Assembly: GCF_038405225.1 (NCBI RefSeq)
Contig: NZ_CP151657.1
Location: forward strand, 558,001-622,000
DNA: 64,000 bases
Origin: Arthrobacter citreus
GTDB lineage: Bacteria; Actinomycetota; Actinomycetes; Actinomycetales; Micrococcaceae
Direction of reading: 5' to 3'
In this document: positions 54,367 to 63,870 of the stretch, piece after piece
Numbering within the stretch: the first letter of the stretch is position 1
How the letters are laid out: each line of letters starts with the position of its first letter
Translations under genes and position numbers: made by a program
Notes under the pieces: generated by a model
Told to the model about the DNA's origin: nothing
The model's input: only the letters and a program-made list of their open reading frames with translations
The model's database searches: none

Positions 54367-54448
54367 GTGTCCATGGTCGGCGGCGCATCCACAAAGAATA
54401 AGTGGCAGAAAGGACCATTACCGTCAAGATACTGCCATGCTGGTCCCC

Positions 54449-55444
54449 ATGCTCAGATCCGTAGCCCTGATAGTGCTCGACGGCGCCGCGCCGTTCGAGC
54501 TCAGCGTGATCGCCGAGGTCTTCGGGATCAACCGTTCGGACCGCGGGACCGGAGTCCCGGCCTTCGACTTCCGGATCTGCACCCCGGTGCCCGGGACAGT
54601 GCAGACCAAGACCGGATTCAGCATCAACATCGACACCGGGCTGGAAGCTGCCGCCGACGCGGACCTGGTGGTCGTGGCGCCGGTCGGAGATCACTGTCCG
54701 CCGCGGACGGGGGCGCCTTCCGAAGTGCTGGGCACCCTCCGGGATGCCGCGCTGCGGGGCGCCTGGGTGATGAGTATCTGCTCGGGAGCGTTTGTGCTTG
54801 CCGAAGCCGGGCTGCTGGACGGCCGCCGGGCAACCACGCACTGGATGTACTCCGCTGAACTGGCCGCAGCCTATCCCGCCGTCCGTGTGAACGAGGACGT
54901 GCTGTACGTGCAGGACGGAAAAATCATCACCAGTGCCGGCACCGCAGCAGGCATCGACGCCGCTTTGCATCTGGTGCGCCTGGAACTCGGGGCCAAAGCC
55001 GCCGCCGCCATTGCCCGGGACATGGTGGTTCCCCCGCACCGCGAAGGCGGGCAGGCGCAGTACATCGACAGGGCAGTGCCTGAGCTGGCCTGCGGGACCC
55101 TGGGCCCCGTCCTGGAGTGGGTGGGGGAGCATCTGGCCGAGGAGCACACGGTCAAGGAGATGGCCGGCCGGGCCGCCATGTCCCCGCGCACCTTCGCCCG
55201 CCGGTTCCGGGCCGAAACCGGCACGACTCCCGCCGCCTGGATCACTGCCCAGCGGGTCCTCCGGGCGCAGGAGCTGCTCGAAGACACCGATCTCAGCGTG
55301 GAGGAGGTGGCGGGGATCAGCGGTTTCGGGCAGCCGGAACTGCTGCGCCACCATTTCCACCGCAGTGTGGGAACCAGTCCGGCGGCCTACCGCAGGACGT
55401 TCCGCGGCACGAACCCGCGCCCTGCCGAAGCGGGGCGGGGGTGA
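54449..55444 (+). CDS. GlxA-family AraC-type regulator with DJ-1/PfpI domain
   Basis: 331 residues from ATG 54449 (MLRSVALIV); an in-frame ATG at 54437 is an alternative. N-terminal DJ-1/PfpI domain (1-about 185) with VALIVLDGAAPFELSVIAEVFG and SICSGAFVLAEAGLLDGRRATTHW, where a Cys sits in the usual nucleophile position. C-terminal AraC HTH (about 220-325): VKEMAGRAAMSPRTFARRFRAETG and VEEVAGISGFGQPELLRHHF. Such regulators control catabolic or stress genes; target unknown. GATACT 54428-54433 is a plausible -10 giving a very short leader. Confidence 0.88.
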   Translation: MLRSVALIVLDGAAPFELSVIAEVFGINRSDRGTGVPAFDFRICTPVPGTVQTKTGFSINIDTGLEAAADADLVVVAPVGDHCPPRTGAPSEVLGTLRDAALRGAWVMSICSGAFVLAEAGLLDGRRATTHWMYSAELAAAYPAVRVNEDVLYVQDGKIITSAGTAAGIDAALHLVRLELGAKAAAAIARDMVVPPHREGGQAQYIDRAVPELACGTLGPVLEWVGEHLAEEHTVKEMAGRAAMSPRTFARRFRAETGTTPAAWITAQRVLRAQELLEDTDLSVEEVAGISGFGQPELLRHHFHRSVGTSPAAYRRTFRGTNPRPAEAGRG

Positions 55445-55480
55445 GGAGAAAGCTCCGGAAAGGTTGCACCCGTTGCGTAC

Positions 55481-55498
55481 GTACCGTCCGGTCGGTAC
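55481..55498 (+). promoter_or_regulatory. TetR-type operator in the SDR-MaoC promoter
   Basis: GTACCGTCCGGTCGGTAC is an 18-bp palindrome with a single mismatched pair. It lies between a possible -35 (TTGCGT, 55474-55479) and -10 (TACGCT, 55496-55501; spacing 16), so binding would block RNA polymerase. It shares 13 of 16 bases with the site upstream of the TetR gene at 63363-63378. Confidence 0.7.
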
Positions 55499-55538
55499 GC
55501 TCGGCGGACAGCGTGATCCAGCTACTCAAGGGAGAGAC

Positions 55539-56312
55539 ATGACCGAGGTTCCGGCACCACCTGTTCAGCGCACCGCCGTCGTTACGGGAGCGGGACGCGG
55601 CATCGGCGCCGCCGTTGCCGCCCGGCTCGCGGCTGACGGCCACCGCGTGGCCGTCCTTGACCTCCGCGAAGAAGACACCGCGGGCACGGTTGAGGCCATC
55701 AACAACTCGGGCGGCAAGGCGGTGGGGGTGGGTGCTGATGTGTCCGACGCCGACGCCGTTGACGCCGCCGTGGCCCGCATCACCGAAGAGCTCGGCGCAC
55801 CCACGATCCTCGTCAATAACGCCGGCATCCTGCGGGACAACCTGCTGTTCAAGATGACCGAGACGGACTGGGATGCGGTCATGGGCGTCCACCTGCGCGG
55901 AGCATTTCTGATGAGCCGCGCCGTGCAGGTCCACCAGGTGCGGGAAAAATGGGGGCGGATCGTCAACCTGTCCAGCACCTCCGCGCTGGGCAACCGGGGG
56001 CAGGCCAACTATTCCGCGGCCAAGGCCGGGCTGCAGGGCTTCACCAAAACCCTGGCCATCGAACTGGGCCGGTACAACGTGACGGTCAACGCCATTGCGC
56101 CGGGCCTGATCGAAACCGACATGACCCGGTCCACGGCGGAACGGATGGGTGTTGCCTACGAAGATTTCATGGCGCGCGCAGCCGCTGACATTCCGGTGGG
56201 ACGGACGGGAAAGCCCGCCGACATCGCGGCGGCGGCATCATTTTTTGTCCGGGAAGAAGCATCCTTCGTCTCCGGACAGGTGCTCTATGTCGCCGGCGGA
56301 CCGAGAGGCTGA
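55539..56312 (+). CDS. SDR, 3-oxoacyl-(acyl carrier)/3-hydroxyacyl-CoA reductase type (FabG-like)
   Basis: 257 residues from ATG 55539 (AAGGGAGAGAC upstream). TGAGRGIGAAVAARLA (NADP/NAD binding), NNAGILRDNLLFKMTE, catalytic Ser in NLSSTSALGNRGQANYSAAKAG (Y-x-x-x-K) and ETDMTRS are FabG motifs. With the neighbouring MaoC hydratase it could interconvert 3-oxo, 3-hydroxy and 2-enoyl thioesters in a catabolic pathway. The upstream TetR palindrome ties it to the liv operon. Confidence 0.88.
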   Translation: MTEVPAPPVQRTAVVTGAGRGIGAAVAARLAADGHRVAVLDLREEDTAGTVEAINNSGGKAVGVGADVSDADAVDAAVARITEELGAPTILVNNAGILRDNLLFKMTETDWDAVMGVHLRGAFLMSRAVQVHQVREKWGRIVNLSSTSALGNRGQANYSAAKAGLQGFTKTLAIELGRYNVTVNAIAPGLIETDMTRSTAERMGVAYEDFMARAAADIPVGRTGKPADIAAAASFFVREEASFVSGQVLYVAGGPRG

Positions 56313-56314
56313 CA

Positions 56315-56767
56315 ATGGCACACTTTACTTCCGTGGAGGAGCTGGAGTCCGCCGTCGGGCAGCGGGAAACCAGCGAATGGATCACCATCGACCAGGAACG
56401 CATCAGCCGGTTCGCCGACGCCACCGACGACCACCAGTGGATCCACCTCGACCCGGAGCGTGCTGCCGCGGGGCCCTTCGGAACCACCATTGCCCACGGT
56501 TTCCTGGTCCTGTCGCTGCTGCCGGCGCTGACGGCCGGACGGCTGAGCGTGGACGGAGCGGTCATGGGCATCAACTACGGGCTGGACCATGTGCGGTTTC
56601 CCCATCCGGTTCCAGTCAATGGCCGGGTGCGTGCGGTGTCCGAACTGGCAAAGGTTGAAACCACCCGCCAGGGCATCCGAATCGTCACGGGAATCACCAT
56701 TGAGCTGGAGGGGGCGGACAAGCCGTCCGTCGTCGCTGAATGGATCACCCTGTATGTCCTGGGCTGA
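56315..56767 (+). CDS. MaoC-family (R)-enoyl-CoA hydratase
   Basis: 150 residues, 2 nt after the SDR stop. DQERISRFADATDDHQWIHLDPERAAAGPFGTTIAHGFLVLSLLP carries the hydratase-2 motif (Asp and His in D-x-x-Q-W-I-H and the G-x-x-IAHGF loop). The hot-dog fold would hydrate 2-enoyl-CoA to (R)-3-hydroxyacyl-CoA. It forms an operon with the SDR, ending at the shared terminator 56821-56859. Confidence 0.92.
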   Translation: MAHFTSVEELESAVGQRETSEWITIDQERISRFADATDDHQWIHLDPERAAAGPFGTTIAHGFLVLSLLPALTAGRLSVDGAVMGINYGLDHVRFPHPVPVNGRVRAVSELAKVETTRQGIRIVTGITIELEGADKPSVVAEWITLYVLG

Positions 56768-56790
56768 GCGCTGATGACCCAATGAGCGAA

Positions 56791-56859
56791 GGGTCCCCAT
56801 GAACAAGGGGACCCCATGAAAAAAGGGACCTGCCCGTCCACCACGGGCAGGTCCCTTTC
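56791..56859 (+). terminator. Bidirectional terminator shared by the two converging operons
   Basis: A strong 16-bp stem (56822-56837 with 56843-56858) flanked by A and T runs, preceded by a second small stem GGGTCCCC/GGGGACCC (56791-56798 and 56807-56814). It separates maoC from livK, whose stop is only 36 nt away, and can stop both transcripts. Confidence 0.9.
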
Positions 56860-56894
56860 TTCATGTTCCGGCGACCGCATGCGGCCGCCGGTGC

Positions 56895-58169
56895 CTACTG
56901 CGGAATGCCGTTTTCCGGCATGGCGGGACGTTCCTCGGTGTAGGGGCTGACCGAGTCGCCTTCCACCGCATACGGAGTTCCGGTGTAGGACTGCACGCCG
57001 CCGGAGACGAGAGTGATCATTCCTCCCGTGTAACCGGCATGGCTGTCAGCACTGAAGCCCAGCGGGACGTGCCCGTTGCCTTTGACGTTGCCCGATTCCA
57101 GGGCTTCCAGCAGGGAATCCCGCGTCGGGTTCTCGCCGGCTTCATGCAGCGCCTCAACAAAGAGGTAACCAAGGGACATCCCGAAGATCGTATTGCCGTC
57201 AAACGCCGCCCCCGGGTTGTACTCCTCGTTGATTTCCTTGAACTTTTCCGTCCATTCGTCCGCTTCGTCGGAGTAGGCCGGAAGGTAATTGGCGCTGATG
57301 AACCCTTCCAGGAGCTTGTCCGTGTTTTCGCCAAGGTAGCTCGACAGGGTGTTGTAGTCGCCGCCCGCTGATGACGCCGCCCACTTCGGGAAGTAGCCAA
57401 GCTTGGCGGCGGTTCCGATGGCCTGGGCGCTGAAGCCGTTGATCGAGGCCAGGAAGTTCACCTCGCAGCCGGCCGCCTGCATGGCGCTGATCTGGGCTGC
57501 AACGTCAGTGTTGGCGGTGGAATACACCTGTGAACTGGCAAGCCCGTCACTGCCCAGCGCCGCTTCGAGTCCGGTCTTGAAGTCCGCCCCAAAATCGTCG
57601 TCCTGTCCAAACAAGCAATAGGTGGCGTCAGGGAATTCCTCCTGCACGTAGGTGGCCAGGACCTTGGACTCGGTGTCGTAGTCCTGCATAAAGCCGTAGG
57701 TGTAGGGGTACTCCTCCGGCTGGTTCCAGGTGGGGCTCCCGGAGGCGACAAAGAGGTCCGGAACCTCGTTGTCGTTCAGGAAATCCAGCACCGAGCTGTG
57801 CGGGGGAGTGCCCAGTCCGCCGAGGATCGCGAACACTTCGTCCTGGAGCACCAGCTCCCGCACCACGCTTTGCGTGTTGGCCGGGTTATAGCCGTCGTCC
57901 TTGACGCTGTACTCAATGCTGCGGCCATGGACTCCGCCGTTGTCATTGACGTAGTCGAAATAGGCCTTCGTTGCCGGCGATATGGACGAGTATCCGGAGG
58001 CAGCCGGTCCCGTCAACGGCTGGTGGGTGCCCACCGTGACGGTGGTGTCGGTAATCCCGGGGACGTCTTCAGCGGCTGCCGGTTCGCCGTCTCCGGAGGA
58101 ACCGCAGGCTCCCAGGACGAGGGCCGCCGTGACTGCGGCGGCAAGGACTGAGTACTTGGAACTGGTCAT
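56895..58169 (-). CDS. livK: Branched-chain-amino-acid-type ABC substrate-binding lipoprotein
   Basis: 424 residues from ATG 58169 (GAAAGG upstream). Signal and lipobox VLGACGSSG, then the periplasmic-binding-protein type 1 fold: VTVGTHQPLTGPAASGYSSIS, NDNGGVHGRSIEYSVKDDGYNP, VFAILGGLGTPPHSSVLDFL. These fit Peripla_BP_6 receptors for amino acids or small aromatic/branched carboxylates. The location with SDR, MaoC and oxidoreductase favours a carboxylate. Last gene of the liv operon; ATGA overlap with livM. Confidence 0.9.
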   Translation of the reverse strand: MTSSKYSVLAAAVTAALVLGACGSSGDGEPAAAEDVPGITDTTVTVGTHQPLTGPAASGYSSISPATKAYFDYVNDNGGVHGRSIEYSVKDDGYNPANTQSVVRELVLQDEVFAILGGLGTPPHSSVLDFLNDNEVPDLFVASGSPTWNQPEEYPYTYGFMQDYDTESKVLATYVQEEFPDATYCLFGQDDDFGADFKTGLEAALGSDGLASSQVYSTANTDVAAQISAMQAAGCEVNFLASINGFSAQAIGTAAKLGYFPKWAASSAGGDYNTLSSYLGENTDKLLEGFISANYLPAYSDEADEWTEKFKEINEEYNPGAAFDGNTIFGMSLGYLFVEALHEAGENPTRDSLLEALESGNVKGNGHVPLGFSADSHAGYTGGMITLVSGGVQSYTGTPYAVEGDSVSPYTEERPAMPENGIPQ

Positions 58170-59251
58170 GGCTGGCCTTTCGTAGTGGTGAGTTGCGGTT
58201 GCAGGGGAAGCGTTGAGGGTGCCGGAGCGGCGGTGGGGTGCCTGCCGCGGACCCGGCGTGCCGCGGTGGACAGCAGTCCCTGGATGCCGCGCGGAGCGAG
58301 CAGGATCACCAGGACGAGGATGGTGCCGAACACCGCGATGGCCAGGTTTCCGTCCAGCCGCTGTGCGGCGTCGGCGGACACCGGAAGGTCTGCGGTGAAG
58401 GAATTGATGGAGTGGGGCAGGAACACCATGATCAGGGCACCCCATACGGCGCCGGTGAGGGAACCGATGCCGCCGATGACGGCCGCCATCAGCAGGTACA
58501 GGGACAGGACCAGGGAGTACGCTCCGGGACTGGCGCTTTGGGTGATGTAGGCGAGGAGCCCGCCGCCCAACCCGGCAGCGGCCGCGCTGACGGTGAAGGA
58601 GATGATCTTGGTCCGGGCCACGTTCACTCCGGACAGCGCTGCGGCCGCATCATTGTCCCGCACGGCCCGCAGCTGGCGGCCGAAGCGTCCGCGCAGCAGG
58701 TTGTTCAGCACGGCCATGACGGCGACGGCGCAGAGGATGGCCAGCCAGGACTGCCACTGTTCGTTGCTGACGATGCCACGGAGGGCTGCCGGACGCTTTT
58801 CCACCGTGATCCACAGTCCCTGGTCGCCGCCGAGCACTCCGGAGAACGTGCTGGTGACCGCGGGAATGGCCACGACAAGTGCGAGCGTGAAGCCGGCGAG
58901 GTACGGGCCGTGCAGCCGTCCCGCGGCGCAGCCGATGATCAGCCCCAGCACTGCGGCTCCCAGGACAGCCGCGGCAAGCGGGGCCAGCAGAAGGACCGGA
59001 CCTTCGATTCCTGACTCCGCCATGGCGTTGGCGCAGAGTGCGTAGCTGTAGGCGCCGCCGGCCATCAGCGCCGCCTGCCCGAGCGAAAGCTGCCCGCCGC
59101 TGCCGGTGAGCACGGTCAGCCCGGCAACCGCGCACAGGTAGGCGCACACGGTGGCCAGCTGGTAGGACACAAAAGGTTCGAGCCCGAAGGTCAGGCCGAT
59201 CAGGGCTGCCGCGGCTGCGGCGGCCAGCAGCAGGGATTTGAGCGGATTCAT
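58166..59251 (-). CDS. livM: Liv-type ABC permease LivM
   Basis: 361 residues from ATG 59251. About ten helices; CAYLCAVAGLTVLTGSGGQLSLGQAALMAGGAYSYAL is the conserved LivM entry motif (L-x-G-x-x-G-Q-x-S-L-G-x-A), and VRDNDAAAALSGVNVARTKIISFTVSAAAAGLGG is the EAA-like segment. It pairs with LivH to form the channel. Pro/Thr-rich C-terminal tail of about 30 residues. Overlaps both neighbours by 4 nt. Confidence 0.92.
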   Translation of the reverse strand: MNPLKSLLLAAAAAAALIGLTFGLEPFVSYQLATVCAYLCAVAGLTVLTGSGGQLSLGQAALMAGGAYSYALCANAMAESGIEGPVLLLAPLAAAVLGAAVLGLIIGCAAGRLHGPYLAGFTLALVVAIPAVTSTFSGVLGGDQGLWITVEKRPAALRGIVSNEQWQSWLAILCAVAVMAVLNNLLRGRFGRQLRAVRDNDAAAALSGVNVARTKIISFTVSAAAAGLGGGLLAYITQSASPGAYSLVLSLYLLMAAVIGGIGSLTGAVWGALIMVFLPHSINSFTADLPVSADAAQRLDGNLAIAVFGTILVLVILLAPRGIQGLLSTAARRVRGRHPTAAPAPSTLPLQPQLTTTKGQP

Positions 59252-60126
59252 ACCGTGCGCTCCTTCGTCAGGGAAAACAGTCCGGCGGGGCGCAGGAGCA
59301 GCACCGCCAGGAGAAGGACCAGCACTGCGATGGGGGCCAGCGTGGCGCCGAGGTAGCCGCTGACCCAGCTGAGCACCACTCCCACCGCCAGGCCGCCGGC
59401 AACGGCGCCGCCGGCGGAGTCCAGGCCGCCCACCACGGCCACCGTGAACGCATACACAAACACGGTGTCCACGGCGTGCGGATTCAAACCGAGCTCGGTG
59501 GGAATGATCAGCAGGGCGGCCAGGGCGCCCACGGCCGAGGACAGCGCCCAGCCCAGTGTCAGCATGCGGGAGGACCGCACTCCCAGCAGCCGTGCCAGAT
59601 CGGGGGCGAAGGCGGCGGCGCGCAGCCGAAGTCCCAGGGACGTCTTGGTGAAAAGCAGCGCCAGCCCGCCGACAATCACGGCGATACACGCGAAGATGAA
59701 CAGGTCGTAGGGGGAAACGGCGCTGATGCCTCCGACGGAAAGCGGGGACGTGCTGAAGGGCGTGGACATGGCCCGGTAGCCGTTGCCGAAGATCATGCCC
59801 AGGATCGCCTGGATCACCAGGAGCAGTCCGAGGCCGGCTATGACGGAATTCAGCGGGGACGTGTTTCCCACGAAGCGCATCACGGTCCGCTCCACGAGGG
59901 CGCCCAGGAGCAGGCCCGCGGCGACGGCGGAGGCCAGTCCCAGCCAGTAGCTGCCGGTGGCGCTGGTGACGGTGAAGGCCACGTAGGTGGTGGCCACAGC
60001 CATGGCTCCCTGGGCGAAGTTCACAATGCGGGCAGCGCGCCAGATAATGACCAGCGACAGCGCAAAAGCTGCCAGCACGGCTCCGCGGGCGAGGCCGTCA
60101 ACGGTGAGGAAGAGAAATCTGTCCAT
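59248..60126 (-). CDS. livH: Liv-type ABC permease LivH
   Basis: 292 residues. DGLARGAVLAAFALSLVIIWRAARIVNFAQGAMAVATTYVAF is the LivH signature (x-x-N-F-A-Q-G-x-x). About eight helices; FAPDLARLLGVRSSRMLTLGWALSS resembles the EAA loop. Start ATG 60126 overlaps the livF stop by one nt. Its ligands are defined by LivK. Confidence 0.92.
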   Translation of the reverse strand: MDRFLFLTVDGLARGAVLAAFALSLVIIWRAARIVNFAQGAMAVATTYVAFTVTSATGSYWLGLASAVAAGLLLGALVERTVMRFVGNTSPLNSVIAGLGLLLVIQAILGMIFGNGYRAMSTPFSTSPLSVGGISAVSPYDLFIFACIAVIVGGLALLFTKTSLGLRLRAAAFAPDLARLLGVRSSRMLTLGWALSSAVGALAALLIIPTELGLNPHAVDTVFVYAFTVAVVGGLDSAGGAVAGGLAVGVVLSWVSGYLGATLAPIAVLVLLLAVLLLRPAGLFSLTKERTV

Positions 60127-60842
60127 CAGAACCCCAAGTAGGTGTGGCGGAGATCGGTGTCCGCGGCCAGGTCGGCGGCGGGGCGGGAGGCAACTATGTT
60201 GCCCAGGCTGAGGACGACGCCGTCATCGGCAACGGCGAGGGCACTGCGGACGTTTTGCTCAATCAGCAGGACCGTCAGTCCGGTGTCGTCGCGCAGTCCG
60301 CGCAGCAGCCCCAGGATCTGGGCGGTGATGCGCGGAGCCAGGCCCAGCGAGGGTTCATCCAGGAGGAGCAGCCGCGGGTCTGCCATCAGCGCCCGGCCCA
60401 GGGCCAGCATTTGGCGCTCGCCGCCGGACAGCTGGTGGCCTGCGGCGCGGCGGCGGCGGTCCAGCGGTTCGAAGAGTTCGTACATCCGTGTGAGCAGGGC
60501 CGCTGCGGCAGCGCGGTCCCGGCGCCATAGTCCGCCGAGGCGCAGGTTCTCATCGACGGTGAGTTCGGTAATGACTCCGCGTCCTTCCGGGACCAGGGCA
60601 ATGCCGCGGCGCACCATGTCCTCAACCCTGACGCCGGCAAGGTCCGATCCGTCGAAGCGGATGCTGCCGCCCGTGGGCCGCAGCTGGCCGACGACGGTGC
60701 GCAGCAGCGTGGTTTTGCCGGCACCGTTTGCCCCGACGACGGCGGTTATGCTGCCGGCCTCCACGGTGAGGCTGATGCCGTGCAGAACGGGGACGGGTCC
60801 GTAACCGGCGCTCACGTCGTCCAGGACCAGGAGGGCGCTCAT
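60126..60842 (-). CDS. livF: Liv-type ABC ATP-binding protein LivF
   Basis: 238 residues. VSAGYGPVPVLHGISLTVEAGSITAVVGANGAGKTTLLRT (Walker A GANGAGKTT), IALVPEGRGVITELTVDENLRLG, LSGGERQMLALGRALMADP and LLLDEPSLGLAPRI are LivF hallmarks. ATGA overlap with livG. It energises the LivHM channel with LivG. Confidence 0.94.
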   Translation of the reverse strand: MSALLVLDDVSAGYGPVPVLHGISLTVEAGSITAVVGANGAGKTTLLRTVVGQLRPTGGSIRFDGSDLAGVRVEDMVRRGIALVPEGRGVITELTVDENLRLGGLWRRDRAAAAALLTRMYELFEPLDRRRRAAGHQLSGGERQMLALGRALMADPRLLLLDEPSLGLAPRITAQILGLLRGLRDDTGLTVLLIEQNVRSALAVADDGVVLSLGNIVASRPAADLAADTDLRHTYLGF

Positions 60843-61633
60843 ACCGGCTCCACCCCCAGGTAGGCGTCGGTGACGGCTGGATTGGCTCCGATCTCCGCGG
60901 GTGTGCCCTCGGCGATCAGCTTGCCGAAGTCCAGGACCGCGATGCGCTCGCAGACACTCATGACCAGGTCAACGTGGTGCTCCACGAGCACCACGGAGCA
61001 GCCCGTGGCGCCAATGGTGCGGATGATTTCCGCCAGCTCATCAATGTCTTCGTGAGCGAGCCCGCCGGCGGGTTCGTCCAGCAGCAGCAGGCGGGGTGAT
61101 CCCGCCAGGGCGCGTGCCAGAGCCACCTTCTTGCGGACCCCGTACGGCAGGGTGTCCGGCAGTGCTGCGGCGTGGCCGGCTATGCCCAGTCCGTCCAGGG
61201 CTTGGAGGGCGCGGTTGCGAAGCTGTGCTTCCCCGCGCCGGGAACGGGGCAGCGCCAGTCCGTCCGCCAATGCGCCGTGGCGGGCGGTGCCTTCCAGCCC
61301 GAGCAGAACGTTTTCCAGAACCGTGAGGCCGGAAAACAGTCCCAGGCCCTGGAGGGTGCGGGAAACGCCGTGGTGGATGAGGCGGTGGGGGCTGGGCCGG
61401 AAGGCCGCGCCGTCGAGCTCCAGAGAACCGGAGGCCGGAGTGTTGAAGCCGCACACAACGTTGAAAAGAGTGGTTTTGCCCGCCCCGTTGGGGCCGATGA
61501 TGCCAACCACGGCCCCTGCCGGGACGGCGAAGGTCACCGCATCCAGGGCGGTGAGACCGCCGAACTTCACGCTGATGCCGCGGAAGTACAGCCGGGGGAT
61601 CGGAACCGACTGGTCGGTATGTTGCACTGCCAT
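60839..61633 (-). CDS. livG: Liv-type ABC ATP-binding protein LivG
   Basis: 264 residues. GPNGAGKTTLFNVVCGF (Walker A), VSRTLQGLGLFSGLTVLENVLLGLE, the signature is weak here (LPYGVRKKVALARALAG), and Walker B LLLLDEPAGGLAHEDIDEL. The KK in place of a canonical LSGGQ core is typical of LivG. It starts 99 nt after the oxidoreductase stop, so it may be read from the tetR promoter. Confidence 0.92.
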   Translation of the reverse strand: MAVQHTDQSVPIPRLYFRGISVKFGGLTALDAVTFAVPAGAVVGIIGPNGAGKTTLFNVVCGFNTPASGSLELDGAAFRPSPHRLIHHGVSRTLQGLGLFSGLTVLENVLLGLEGTARHGALADGLALPRSRRGEAQLRNRALQALDGLGIAGHAAALPDTLPYGVRKKVALARALAGSPRLLLLDEPAGGLAHEDIDELAEIIRTIGATGCSVVLVEHHVDLVMSVCERIAVLDFGKLIAEGTPAEIGANPAVTDAYLGVEPV

Positions 61634-61732
61634 AAGGACTCCGTTGTCTCGTTAATGGTTGCCGTGCTGGTGCTCGTGAATCGTTGTTTTGCGGAAATCG
61701 TGGACGTCCTGCCGAACAGGCGGGCGCAGCGG

Positions 61733-62707
61733 CTACAGGGCCAGCACCACCCGCCCTGCGGTCAGTCCATCGCCGAGGCGCTGCACGGCTCCGGGCGCCT
61801 CGGCAAACGGAACGGTTTCAGTGACCAGCGGACGGACCAGGCCCTTGTCCGCCAAAAGAGTGAGTTGCTCGTGAACCTCTTTCACCAGTTCCGGCGCACG
61901 CTTGGTGTAGAGCGCCCAGTGCAGGCCCAGCAGGGAGTAGTTCTTGACGAGCGCATGGTTCATGCGTGCGCTCTGCAGGGTTCCGGCGGCAAAGCCAACC
62001 ACCACGATCCGGCCTTCGAAGGCGATGCAGCGGGTGGAGCGGTCAAAGGTTTCTCCGCCCACGGGATCGTAGATGACGTCGGCGCCGCGTCCCCCGGTGG
62101 CCGTGTTGACTACCTCCACGAAGTCCTCGGTGGTGCGGTTCACCACGATGTCGGCGCCCGCCTCTTCGGCGACCCGGCGTTTGGCTTCATTGCCAACCAC
62201 GCCGATCACCCTGGCGCCGGCGGCCTTGCCCAGCTGCACGGCCGCCGTGCCAACACCGCCGGCGGCGGCATGCACCAGCAGTGTCTCTCCGGGGGCGATC
62301 CGCGCCCGGCGGTGAAGGCCGAAGTACCCGGTCTGGTAACCGATGCACAGGGCCGCGGCCTCGGCGTCGGACAGGGATTCCGGGGCCGGGAAGACAGCTG
62401 CCGCGGGAACCTGCACCTGCTCGGCCATCACGCCAAGATGCGAGGCAATCACGCGGTCACCGAGCGAAATCCCCGTGACGCCGTCGCCGATTGCCGTAAC
62501 GGTGCCGCACAGCTCAATGCCCGGGATGAAGGGCAGCGCCGGTTTTTCCTGGTACAGGCCGCGGCAGAGCAGCACATCCGGGAAATTCAGGGCGACGGCG
62601 CGGGTGGCCAGCACCACCGTGCCCGGCATGGCCTCGGGTGCGGGCAGTTCGGCCAGGTGAAGGGCATCGCGCGGTTCGGCGAGGGTGGTGACGTTCCAGG
62701 CTTTCAT
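61733..62707 (-). CDS. NADPH:quinone oxidoreductase-like MDR
   Basis: 324 residues. MKAWNVTTLAEPRDALHLAELPAPE start, NFPDVLLCRGLYQ, HAAAGGVGTAAVQLGKAAGARVIGVV (Rossmann) and IVVVGFAAGTLQSARMNHALVKNYSLLGLHW are motifs of the zinc-free quinone-oxidoreductase/acryloyl-CoA-reductase-like group. It may reduce an enoyl intermediate or quinone. Start ATG 62707 overlaps the TetR stop (ATGA), so it is the regulator's first target. Confidence 0.88.
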   Translation of the reverse strand: MKAWNVTTLAEPRDALHLAELPAPEAMPGTVVLATRAVALNFPDVLLCRGLYQEKPALPFIPGIELCGTVTAIGDGVTGISLGDRVIASHLGVMAEQVQVPAAAVFPAPESLSDAEAAALCIGYQTGYFGLHRRARIAPGETLLVHAAAGGVGTAAVQLGKAAGARVIGVVGNEAKRRVAEEAGADIVVNRTTEDFVEVVNTATGGRGADVIYDPVGGETFDRSTRCIAFEGRIVVVGFAAGTLQSARMNHALVKNYSLLGLHWALYTKRAPELVKEVHEQLTLLADKGLVRPLVTETVPFAEAPGAVQRLGDGLTAGRVVLAL

Positions 62708-63303
62708 TCGGATGATCCTTCGGGTAGGGCGGGCCGCAGGCCGGCAAGGTACAGATCAGTCAGTTGCTTCGCGACCTGGTGCTTCGTCAGCGGCCCGGAG
62801 GGCTGGTACCAGAACGAGAGGTAGTGCGGGTTGGCGAAAAAGTTGGCCACGAGGACGGCCGTCGGGATGTCGGTGCGGAAGATGCCCTCTTCGCGGCCGC
62901 GGGCGATCAGTGCGCCGAAGACCTCGTTGTAGCGGCGGCGGCGGTCCTTCACGGCTTCCATCCGGTCGGGACTGAGCATGTGCTGGGACCGGAAGAATAC
63001 GGTGCCTTCACGAATCCAATCGATCGAGGTGACGATGACGTCTTCGCAGACCAGCCGGACGGTCTGCTCCACGGGCAGGCCGCGGGCCGTGATTTCGGTG
63101 AGGTTGTGGTGCTGCAGGGTGAGGATCCGGTCGTAGATGTCGAAGAGCAGATCATCCTTGGAATTGAAGTAGTGGTACAGGGCGCCCTTGGTGACGCCGG
63201 CGGCATCGACGATCTGCTGCACGCTGGTCCTGGCGTAGCCTTGGCTGGAAAAGAGCTCCACGGAAACGCGGGCCAGTTCTTCCTTGATGTTCATGGTCTT
63301 CAT
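62704..63303 (-). CDS. TetR-family transcriptional regulator
   Basis: 199 residues from ATG 63303 (MKTMNIKEELARV; an ATG at 63294 is an alternative). N-terminal HTH: VELFSSQGYARTSVQQIVDAAGVTKGALYHYFNSKDDLL. The C-terminal ligand domain (about 60-199) includes REGTVFFRSQHMLSPDRMEAVKDRRRRYNEVF, resembling FadR/KstR2-type acyl-CoA-responsive regulators. It leads the operon with the oxidoreductase and liv genes. Palindrome at 63363-63378 suits autorepression. Confidence 0.9.
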   Translation of the reverse strand: MKTMNIKEELARVSVELFSSQGYARTSVQQIVDAAGVTKGALYHYFNSKDDLLFDIYDRILTLQHHNLTEITARGLPVEQTVRLVCEDVIVTSIDWIREGTVFFRSQHMLSPDRMEAVKDRRRRYNEVFGALIARGREEGIFRTDIPTAVLVANFFANPHYLSFWYQPSGPLTKHQVAKQLTDLYLAGLRPALPEGSSE

Positions 63304-63362
63304 GCGGGTGTTCCGTGTTTCTCGTGGAGTCTCGTGCCGGAATGCCGCCGGGTGAACCCGGG

Positions 63363-63378
63363 AACCGACCGGTTGGTA
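63363..63378 (-). promoter_or_regulatory. TetR-type operator upstream of tetR
   Basis: AACCGACCGGTTGGTA, a near palindrome 60 bp before the tetR start. On the minus strand it follows TACATA (-10) and TTGTGA (-35) at 63379-63404, a position fitting repression. Its twin is at 55481. The rest of the gap 63304-63643 holds an 11-nt C run (63482-63492) and the tRNA terminator; no gene is seen. Confidence 0.68.
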
Positions 63379-63606
63379 TGTAGGGATCACCATACCGTCA
63401 CAATGCCCGATGTCCGCAAGGGTTTGGCGAAAGAATTCCCGCGGCTTCGGTATGGAAGGATGACCCTGCCGTGTCTTGCCGCCCCCCCCCCCGCGGTGCG
63501 CGTGCTGGTAGCGTCCCGTTGCAATCGGTGCGTCAAGCTGCCCGGGGACGAATGCTTTGACGGGGGAACCGATGGTGGGGCCGGCCGGGGCCCGGGCAAA
63601 AGAAAA

Positions 63607-63643: not shown

Positions 63644-63719
63644 TGGTGCCCTCGATAGGATTCGAACCTACGGCCTGTTGCTCCGGAGGCAACCGCTCTA
63701 TCCCCTGAGCTACGAGGGC
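63644..63719 (-). tRNA. tRNA-Arg (anticodon CCG)
   Basis: On the minus strand the acceptor GCCCTCG pairs with CGAGGGC, with discriminator A and encoded CCA (63644-63646). D-arm AGCTCAGGGGATAGAGC, anticodon stem GTTGC/GCAAC with loop CTCCGGA (anticodon CCG, reads CGG) and T-arm GTAGG TTCGAATCC. The length is 76 nt, normal. No integrated element adjoins it. Confidence 0.95.
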
Positions 63720-63870
63720 AAGGACGCCGGTAAACCGGCAGGTCCTGTGGGACTCAAGAAGCTTAGCAGGTCCGGCGCGCCGTGTGAAAACGTCCCCGGA
63801 TCATGCCGCGGAACGGGCGGTGTGGACGCCCCCGGGTCAGAGGCCCCCGGGCCAGAGGCCCTCGGGCCCC

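Follow-up and report, generated by a model that had tools for sequence, protein, structure and literature searches.

Each of the described systems closest to the locus studied here shares some of its features. The locus lies in a 64,000-nucleotide stretch of Arthrobacter citreus DNA (RefSeq assembly GCF_038405225.1, contig NZ_CP151657.1, positions 558,001 to 622,000; hereafter the window), where a TetR-family regulator gene, a Liv-type ATP-binding cassette (ABC) importer operon and an SDR-MaoC gene pair carry the same palindrome. PaaR of Burkholderia cenocepacia is a TetR-type repressor whose operator, ACCGACCGGTCGGT, lies between the -35 and -10 elements of paa promoters. It governs phenylacetate genes in three clusters and is released by ‘compound II’, read here as phenylacetyl-CoA and hence as an acyl-CoA inducer (PMC2770484, PMC9493321). 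The lva operon of Pseudomonas putida serves levulinate catabolism and encodes the CoA ligase LvaE, the kinase LvaA, the dehydrogenase (ACAD) LvaC, the SDR LvaD and a transporter (PMC6692424, PMC12440821, PMC11342911). LvaA and LvaC, like ACAD10 and ACAD11, convert a 4-hydroxyacyl-CoA to a 2-enoyl-CoA by phosphorylating it and then removing the phosphate by elimination; the role of ACAD10/ACAD11 in 4-hydroxy-acid breakdown was published in 2024-2025 (PMC12440821, PMC11342911). QsdR of Rhodococcus erythropolis is likewise an actinomycete TetR repressor set over a CoA ligase and lactone catabolism (the qsd operon). However, it is a reported sensor of the lactone ring itself and has a different gene set, and we liken it to the window TetR by description only (PMC6262395). 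Among the matches listed, we found no description of the present regulon in the open-licence literature.

The window TetR very probably co-regulates the importer and the SDR-MaoC pair. A 20-bp operator with the consensus CATACCGACCGGTCGGTATG, taken over 171 related sites, occurs three times in the window (Table 1), and all three copies are within one mismatch of ACCGACCGGTCGGT. The preliminary description had named two of them, with cores at 55482-55497 (SDR side) and 63363-63378 (tetR side); both are real, and 13 of their 16 bases are equal when counted by eye. It had overlooked the third, whose core AACCGACTGGTCGGTA occupies positions 61604-61619 in the opening codons of livG and marks a separate possible control point for livGFHMK. 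Searched with up to three mismatches, the 20-bp consensus gives three strand-wise matches at two places in the window, against 0.02 expected in shuffles; these are the SDR site on both strands and the livG site on one, and the tetR site fails the cut. The gene order was as described, with two converging units (tetR, QOR, livG, livF, livH, livM, livK on the minus strand; SDR, MaoC on the plus strand) ending tail to tail at a terminator-like stem. The stem was called on the plus strand, and a run of A is visible in the sequence on its opposite side.

The operators are conserved, position by position, across the genus. The TetR is present, at 73-96% identity, in 20 of 28 other Arthrobacter genomes; the remaining eight (G005, G006, G016, G017, G022, G023, G024 and G025) have only distant TetR matches. 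LivK was matched (E <=1e-20) in exactly 21 of 29 genus genomes, own included, which are those with the TetR, and in none of the eight without it. Conservation of the motif at orthologous loci, on which the preliminary description had staked its proposal of one operator family common to both units, was found throughout: upstream of tetR in 20/20 relatives with the TetR, at livG in 20/20 (always centred 22 bases past the ATG) and upstream of SDR in 19/19 relatives having that gene. The convergent arrangement is also kept, and MaoC adjoins SDR in 19 of 20 relatives; the exception to the arrangement is G009, which is without SDR-MaoC and also without the SDR site. QOR was not found at the locus in 13/20.

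The preliminary description had placed each palindrome in a plausible core promoter, which inspection by eye and conservation in the genus support; a sigma-70 consensus scan of the window reported no promoter at any of the three operators. Among 15 aligned genus sequences, the region upstream of SDR keeps TTGC and most of the operator core invariant, with a TAnnnT-like element in many. Upstream of tetR, a conserved TTGCG and a -10-like block precede the operator. At the livG start, the Shine-Dalgarno region, the ATG and the operator are all conserved.

Table 1. Features of the operator-bearing locus (window coordinates)
Feature	Position	Strand	Remarks
Operator 1, 20 bp, upstream of SDR-MaoC	55480..55499	+	fills spacer of candidate promoter
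Candidate promoter at operator 1	TTGCGT 55473-55478; TACGCT 55496-55501	+	assigned by eye
SDR-family dehydrogenase, FabG-like	55539..56312	+	TGAGRGIG and YSAAK motifs
MaoC-domain protein, probable (R)-specific enoyl-CoA hydratase	56315..56767	+	Pfam PF01575, E 8e-25
Terminator-like stem, 16 pairs, between convergent units	56822..56858	.	terminator scan call
livK-like substrate-binding protein (Peripla_BP_6)	56895..58169	-	lipoprotein-like start by eye
livM-like permease	58166..59251	-	
livH-like permease	59248..60126	-	
livF-like ATPase	60126..60842	-	
livG-like ATPase	60839..61633	-	GGAG 5 bases 5' of ATG
Operator 3, over codons 5-11 of livG	61602..61621	-	centre +22 from ATG
QOR: zinc-binding-dehydrogenase/quinone-reductase-like protein	61733..62707	-	
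TetR-family regulator	62704..63303	-	TetR_N and TetR_C_24
Operator 2, upstream of tetR	63361..63380	-	just downstream of candidate -10
Candidate promoter at operator 2	-10 TATGGT 63394-63389; TTGCGG 63419-63414; spacer 19	-	assigned by eye

It is very improbable that the three palindromes are chance occurrences or the sites of another regulator, even though a genome-wide count gives such a view something to build on. The genome (3.88 Mb, single contig) was scanned for the motif, as the preliminary description had proposed, with the 14-mer ACCGACCGGTCGGT, a word itself derived from the window sites. Four places lie within one mismatch; three are the window sites, and the fourth falls within a 758-aa reading frame. 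A reversed control pattern gives nine places in the same genome. A count of four is therefore not unusual, and the evidence resides in clustering, promoter position and conservation. Chance does not account for sites kept at fixed positions in 20/20 genomes, nor for the SDR site being absent from the single genome (G009, locus L082) that has no SDR-MaoC.

Counts over a wider set of loci also set the operator apart from background. This set comprised 100 loci (20 from the genus, two from other genomes and 78 of the best 80 loci from a scan of named genomes); L125 (on a contig already represented by G007) and L141 (whose genome is that of L092) were excluded. Sites matching 12 or more of 14 bases stand near tetR units in 67/100 loci, at livG in 37/38, upstream of SDR in 19/23 and upstream of units with APH (the kinase gene discussed below) in 48/60, against a background of 14 among 998 other genes. 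Five control palindromes stay near zero, with 0 to 2 matches per class and 1 to 6 of the 998. The CAT...ATG flanks, whose three bases on each side are absent from the search word, are preferred over the 171 consensus sites (C 0.63, A 0.74, T 0.73), which are related by descent and not independent. Some misses were read as artefacts: in L089 the SDR gene call is merged with its neighbour and the site is present, and in L130, L136, L139, L164, L171 and L192 the APH lies at the end of the fetched stretch. The livG site of L091 matches at 11 of 14. L136 (tetR), L163 (APH) and L203 (tetR) stand as misses.

The operator has a close printed precedent in PaaR. It is identical letter for letter to the Burkholderia operator (ACCGACCGGTCGGTT, and ACCAACCGGTCGGTT at PpaaH), the core of the window tetR site, ACCAACCGGTCGGT, equals the printed PpaaH site, and operator 1 occupies a candidate -35/-10 spacer, as in the paa promoters (PMC2770484, PMC9493321). 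The preliminary description had instead invoked FadR/KstR2-type regulators as the precedent for an ACCG/CGGT operator, for which we found no support in the literature consulted. The window TetR, with an N-terminal HTH (PF00440, 2.3e-17) and a C-terminal PF17932 domain (9.5e-20), matches the KstR2 and MbdR structures by profile at 74.7 and 59.3 bits. The operators of KstR2 and MbdR probably differ from CATACCGACCGGTCGGTATG. Both regulators fall by profile score in the same broad TetR group and serve other pathways.

This identity raises the alternative that the window TetR is a PaaR-type regulator of phenylacetate or another aromatic acid, with the Liv system importing the acid and an aryl-acyl-CoA releasing the repressor. 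A weak match of the window MaoC to the MaoC end of PaaZ (44 bits, cut-off 563) points the same way. Nevertheless, we consider this unlikely. The genome has another TetR, 26% identical, beside paaZ-, paaK- and paaI-like genes (named from reading the sequences), and two overlapping 12-of-14 matches precede the paaZ-like gene (L206:3202-3219; G000:C1:94201-94218). The sequence there is a probable PaaR operator, by prediction. The ten-gene window locus has no paa-like genes, its TetR is not the paa-side TetR of the genome, and its operators have CAT/ATG flanks, whereas sites on the paaA and paaZ sides in the genus have other ones. Furthermore, whereas PaaR governs paa genes, no paa gene was identified among the regulon members, and the regulon of relatives carries an LvaA/LvaC-type pair; many neighbours in those loci are unannotated, and paa genes may be among them.

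Relatives place acyl-CoA enzymes beside the same regulator. A close TetR (E <=1e-50, own genome included) was found in 16 of 297 sampled genomes of the order and in 7 of 94 genera; the system is therefore patchy. The named-genome scan was seeded with peptide words from the DNA-binding helix of the TetR, and its best 80 loci come from Microbacterium, Cellulomonas, Isoptericola, Promicromonospora, Nocardiopsis, Streptomyces, Amycolatopsis and others. Record titles split these into 24 loci from Micrococcales and 56 from elsewhere; their genes were called by a script trained on the window. Recurring neighbours in the Micrococcales loci are SDR1 (22), SDR2 (21), QOR (20), livG (18), ACAD (17), CoA ligase (16) and APH (11), and in the other 56 they are APH (49) and ACAD (48). 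Thus, CoA ligase, dehydrogenase and importer all adjoin the same TetR in relatives, in keeping with the uptake and acyl-CoA regulon that the preliminary description had envisaged. The parts list of the lva operon matches the kinds of genes found in Micrococcales (PMC6692424, PMC12440821, PMC11342911). The lva operon, however, uses a sigma54-type LvaR and an acetate-symporter-like transporter, in place of the TetR and ABC importer seen here.

The kinase and dehydrogenase of the relatives resemble ACAD11. The best structure matches of the regulon ACAD are ACAD11 chains, and APH matches mammalian ACAD11 and bacterial kinases. In Glaciihabitans L126, alignment with ACAD11 covers the R...HCMR block and catalytic Asp of the ACAD as well as the catalytic Asp of the kinase, with L092 as a further case. 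The mammalian proteins share these residues, which PMC12440821 names, and the two ACAD11 structure chains have Ala and Asn, respectively, in place of the two Asp residues, matching mutants described in that paper. HCMR is found in 65 of 66 ACAD frames at least 55% identical (L141 among the 66). Kinase and ACAD are fused in mammalian ACAD10/ACAD11, whereas they are separate genes in the relatives and absent from the window regulon. We therefore lean, with some confidence, towards a 4-hydroxy-acid-type pathway in the relatives.

A plainer role in general or branched/medium-chain fatty-acid beta-oxidation, under a FadR/KstR2-like regulator and with the APH-ACAD pair of relatives acting on something other than a 4-hydroxy substrate, seems improbable, although less so than the aromatic-acid alternative. 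SDR, MaoC and QOR are generic acyl-CoA-type enzymes, the regulator profile also matches KstR2, and the L091 CoA ligase matches long-chain fatty-acid ligase models, under their cut-offs. Such a role sits poorly with APH in 60/80 and ACAD in 65/80 of the non-genus loci, and with the retention of ACAD11-specific residues where checked.

In a few relatives, gene order links the window SDR-MaoC pair to the proposed 4-hydroxy-acid-type pathway. The L126 unit runs operator-APH-ACAD-SDR-MaoC-ACS, where ACS is the CoA ligase; identity to the window proteins is 77% for its SDR and 59% for its MaoC. Three Amycolatopsis loci have the SDR-MaoC pair ahead of operator-APH-ACAD, all on one strand. Hydration by a MaoC protein and oxidation by an SDR would be the steps expected after a 2-enoyl-CoA.

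Taken with the anatomy of the sites and knowledge of the family, these observations suggest a mechanism. The TetR would bind the palindrome at three promoter-proximal places: its own gene, the livGFHMK start and SDR-MaoC. Repression would come from promoter occupancy at SDR and tetR and from the site just behind the livG start. The ligand is likely to be of acyl-CoA type: once the imported acid is converted to an acyl-CoA, this product probably frees the DNA of the TetR, which would raise uptake and breakdown in step while the repressor keeps its own level in check. Control by the same protein and palindrome would extend in relatives to a kinase of LvaA/ACAD11 type and a dehydrogenase of LvaC/ACAD11 type, which in Micrococcales have a CoA ligase next to them. 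It is for this reason that the ancestral pathway most likely imported a 4-hydroxy acid (or a 4-keto or gamma-lactone-derived acid), ligated it to CoA, phosphorylated it and eliminated the phosphate, after which MaoC would hydrate the product and SDR would oxidise it to a 3-ketoacyl-CoA. The window genus would keep in the regulon only the importer, SDR and MaoC, plus the reductase in some members.

On balance, we favour an autoregulated, acyl-CoA-sensing TetR that couples an ABC importer to 4-hydroxy-acid-type catabolism, of which the window genus holds a reduced set. A wider proposal, to which we give slightly less than even weight, is that acyl-CoA-sensing TetR repressors of a clade for which we found no description control ACAD11-type 4-hydroxy-acid catabolism throughout actinomycetes by way of a single 20-bp operator, that Micrococcales add a dedicated Liv-type ABC importer and that the window genus, reduced, kept the importer and the downstream beta-oxidation enzymes.

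Several observations weigh against these proposals. Seeding with words from the DNA-binding helix favours loci with the same operator. Outside Micrococcales, only 25/56 tetR units have a 12-of-14 site; 21 more reach 11 of 14 at best, some with unrelated-looking words, and ten reach 9-10 of 14, including L203 and the end-cut L171, and are not explained away. No livG, ACS or SDR2 of regulon type was called in the other 56 loci, which restricts the link of importer and ligase with the regulon to Micrococcales; in those 56, tetR often has a ligase-like gene (about 35% identical) ahead of it. A window-type SDR stands beside APH-ACAD in only 4/60 APH loci (L126, L160, L187 and L193). The PaaR-like TetR has a similar site nearby, so cross-binding is possible. 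The 20 genus loci gave no call of an APH, ACAD or ACS of regulon type, and none occurs at the window locus, which is therefore not an lva-type member, kinase and ACAD being missing and the ligase of the lva operon likewise. The window genome has its best ACAD11-type SDR-ACAD-APH cassette, with the HCMR block, elsewhere (L205:5055-8241; G000:C1 about 3,781,054-3,784,240); its APH and ACAD are 36-38% identical, and it is without the operator.

The regulon of the window species is thus a reduced form, consisting of importer, QOR, SDR, MaoC and regulator. The preliminary description was right that ligase and dehydrogenase are absent from the locus; it expected partners elsewhere, and none was found there under the same motif. 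Within two mismatches of the 14-mer lie 39 places: the three window sites, the two overlapping ones beside the paaZ-like gene (94201 and 94205) and 34 others, of which, by our own gene calls, 32 are inside reading frames and two lie between genes, neither at a convincing promoter position (1648258 and 2706159). Neither this search nor one with a 16-mer (up to two mismatches; most, not all, places inspected, a few of them intergenic) revealed further partner genes in the genome, and no APH, ACAD or ACS was found under the operator as far as these searches reach. The genus appears to have lost the missing pathway genes, rather than never to have had them. The regulon may still serve a 4-hydroxy acid, perhaps via the separate 3.78-Mb cassette; that the window species uses the same substrate as its relatives is nonetheless a tentative suggestion, which we rate below even. 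The same three-gene cassette occurs in TetR-less G005 and G016, and ACADs with the same HCMR block occur in G001, G010 and G014.

These results offer a hypothesis on the substrate of a Liv-type importer, which family naming would make a branched-chain amino-acid transporter. Its composition (two ATPases, two permeases and a periplasmic-type binding protein) is complete in one operon for a HAAT/Liv ABC importer. LivK reaches only 18.5 bits against the branched-chain amino acid binding-protein model PRK15404 (cut-off 477), and its best structure match is 4n03 (58 bits). The bacterial counterpart of ACAD10/ACAD11 would gain a regulator with a clear operator. An operator so well defined opens the regulon to testing in many of the genera named above and, should the ligand be confirmed, could yield a biosensor for 4-hydroxy acids or lactones. 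A further caution is that, among actinomycetes, matches to a PaaR-like motif may be sites of this second regulator.

Further motif matches and neighbouring genes were recorded. Among the matches listed, ten regions from eight relatives with a place within one mismatch and one two-mismatch place of the window genome (G000) were inspected; nine of the 11 places are in reading frames, the L209 place adjoins a paaA-like gene and the L212 place lies between genes, close to a transporter gene. A further 12-of-14 site, also next to a paaA-like gene, is present in L215. The sites at L209:3409 and L215:4145, in two genus relatives, are PaaR-like and lie between paaA-like genes and PadR-like regulators (named by eye). 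The L212 site (L212:3233; G007:C9:259732) matches 13 of 14 and lies 122 bases 5' of the transporter gene, whose 85% identical counterpart in G000 is two genes away from the 3.78-Mb APH-ACAD cassette; the corresponding gap in G000 has a best match of 10 of 14. Of the intergenic 16-mer places inspected in the window genome, the one nearest to a gene start (2142498, 66 bases upstream of an ATPase-like gene) has a differing core, ACTGACTGGTCAGT, and was taken as the site of another regulator. MaoC paralogues of TetR-less genomes (12 of 29 genomes searched; seven regions read) belong to other clusters, and the regions read hold no 12-of-14 site; they were dropped. At L091:7729-8100, in G056, a small cupin-like reading frame (Pfam match under cut-off) lies between SDR2 and livG. 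Directly upstream of SDR-MaoC in the window is an FtrA-like regulator with AraC and DJ-1 domains (54437-55444), there in only some genus relatives. Upstream of tetR, a run of about ten C (about 63483-63493) and a tRNA-like sequence (about 63645-63720) were seen by eye only.

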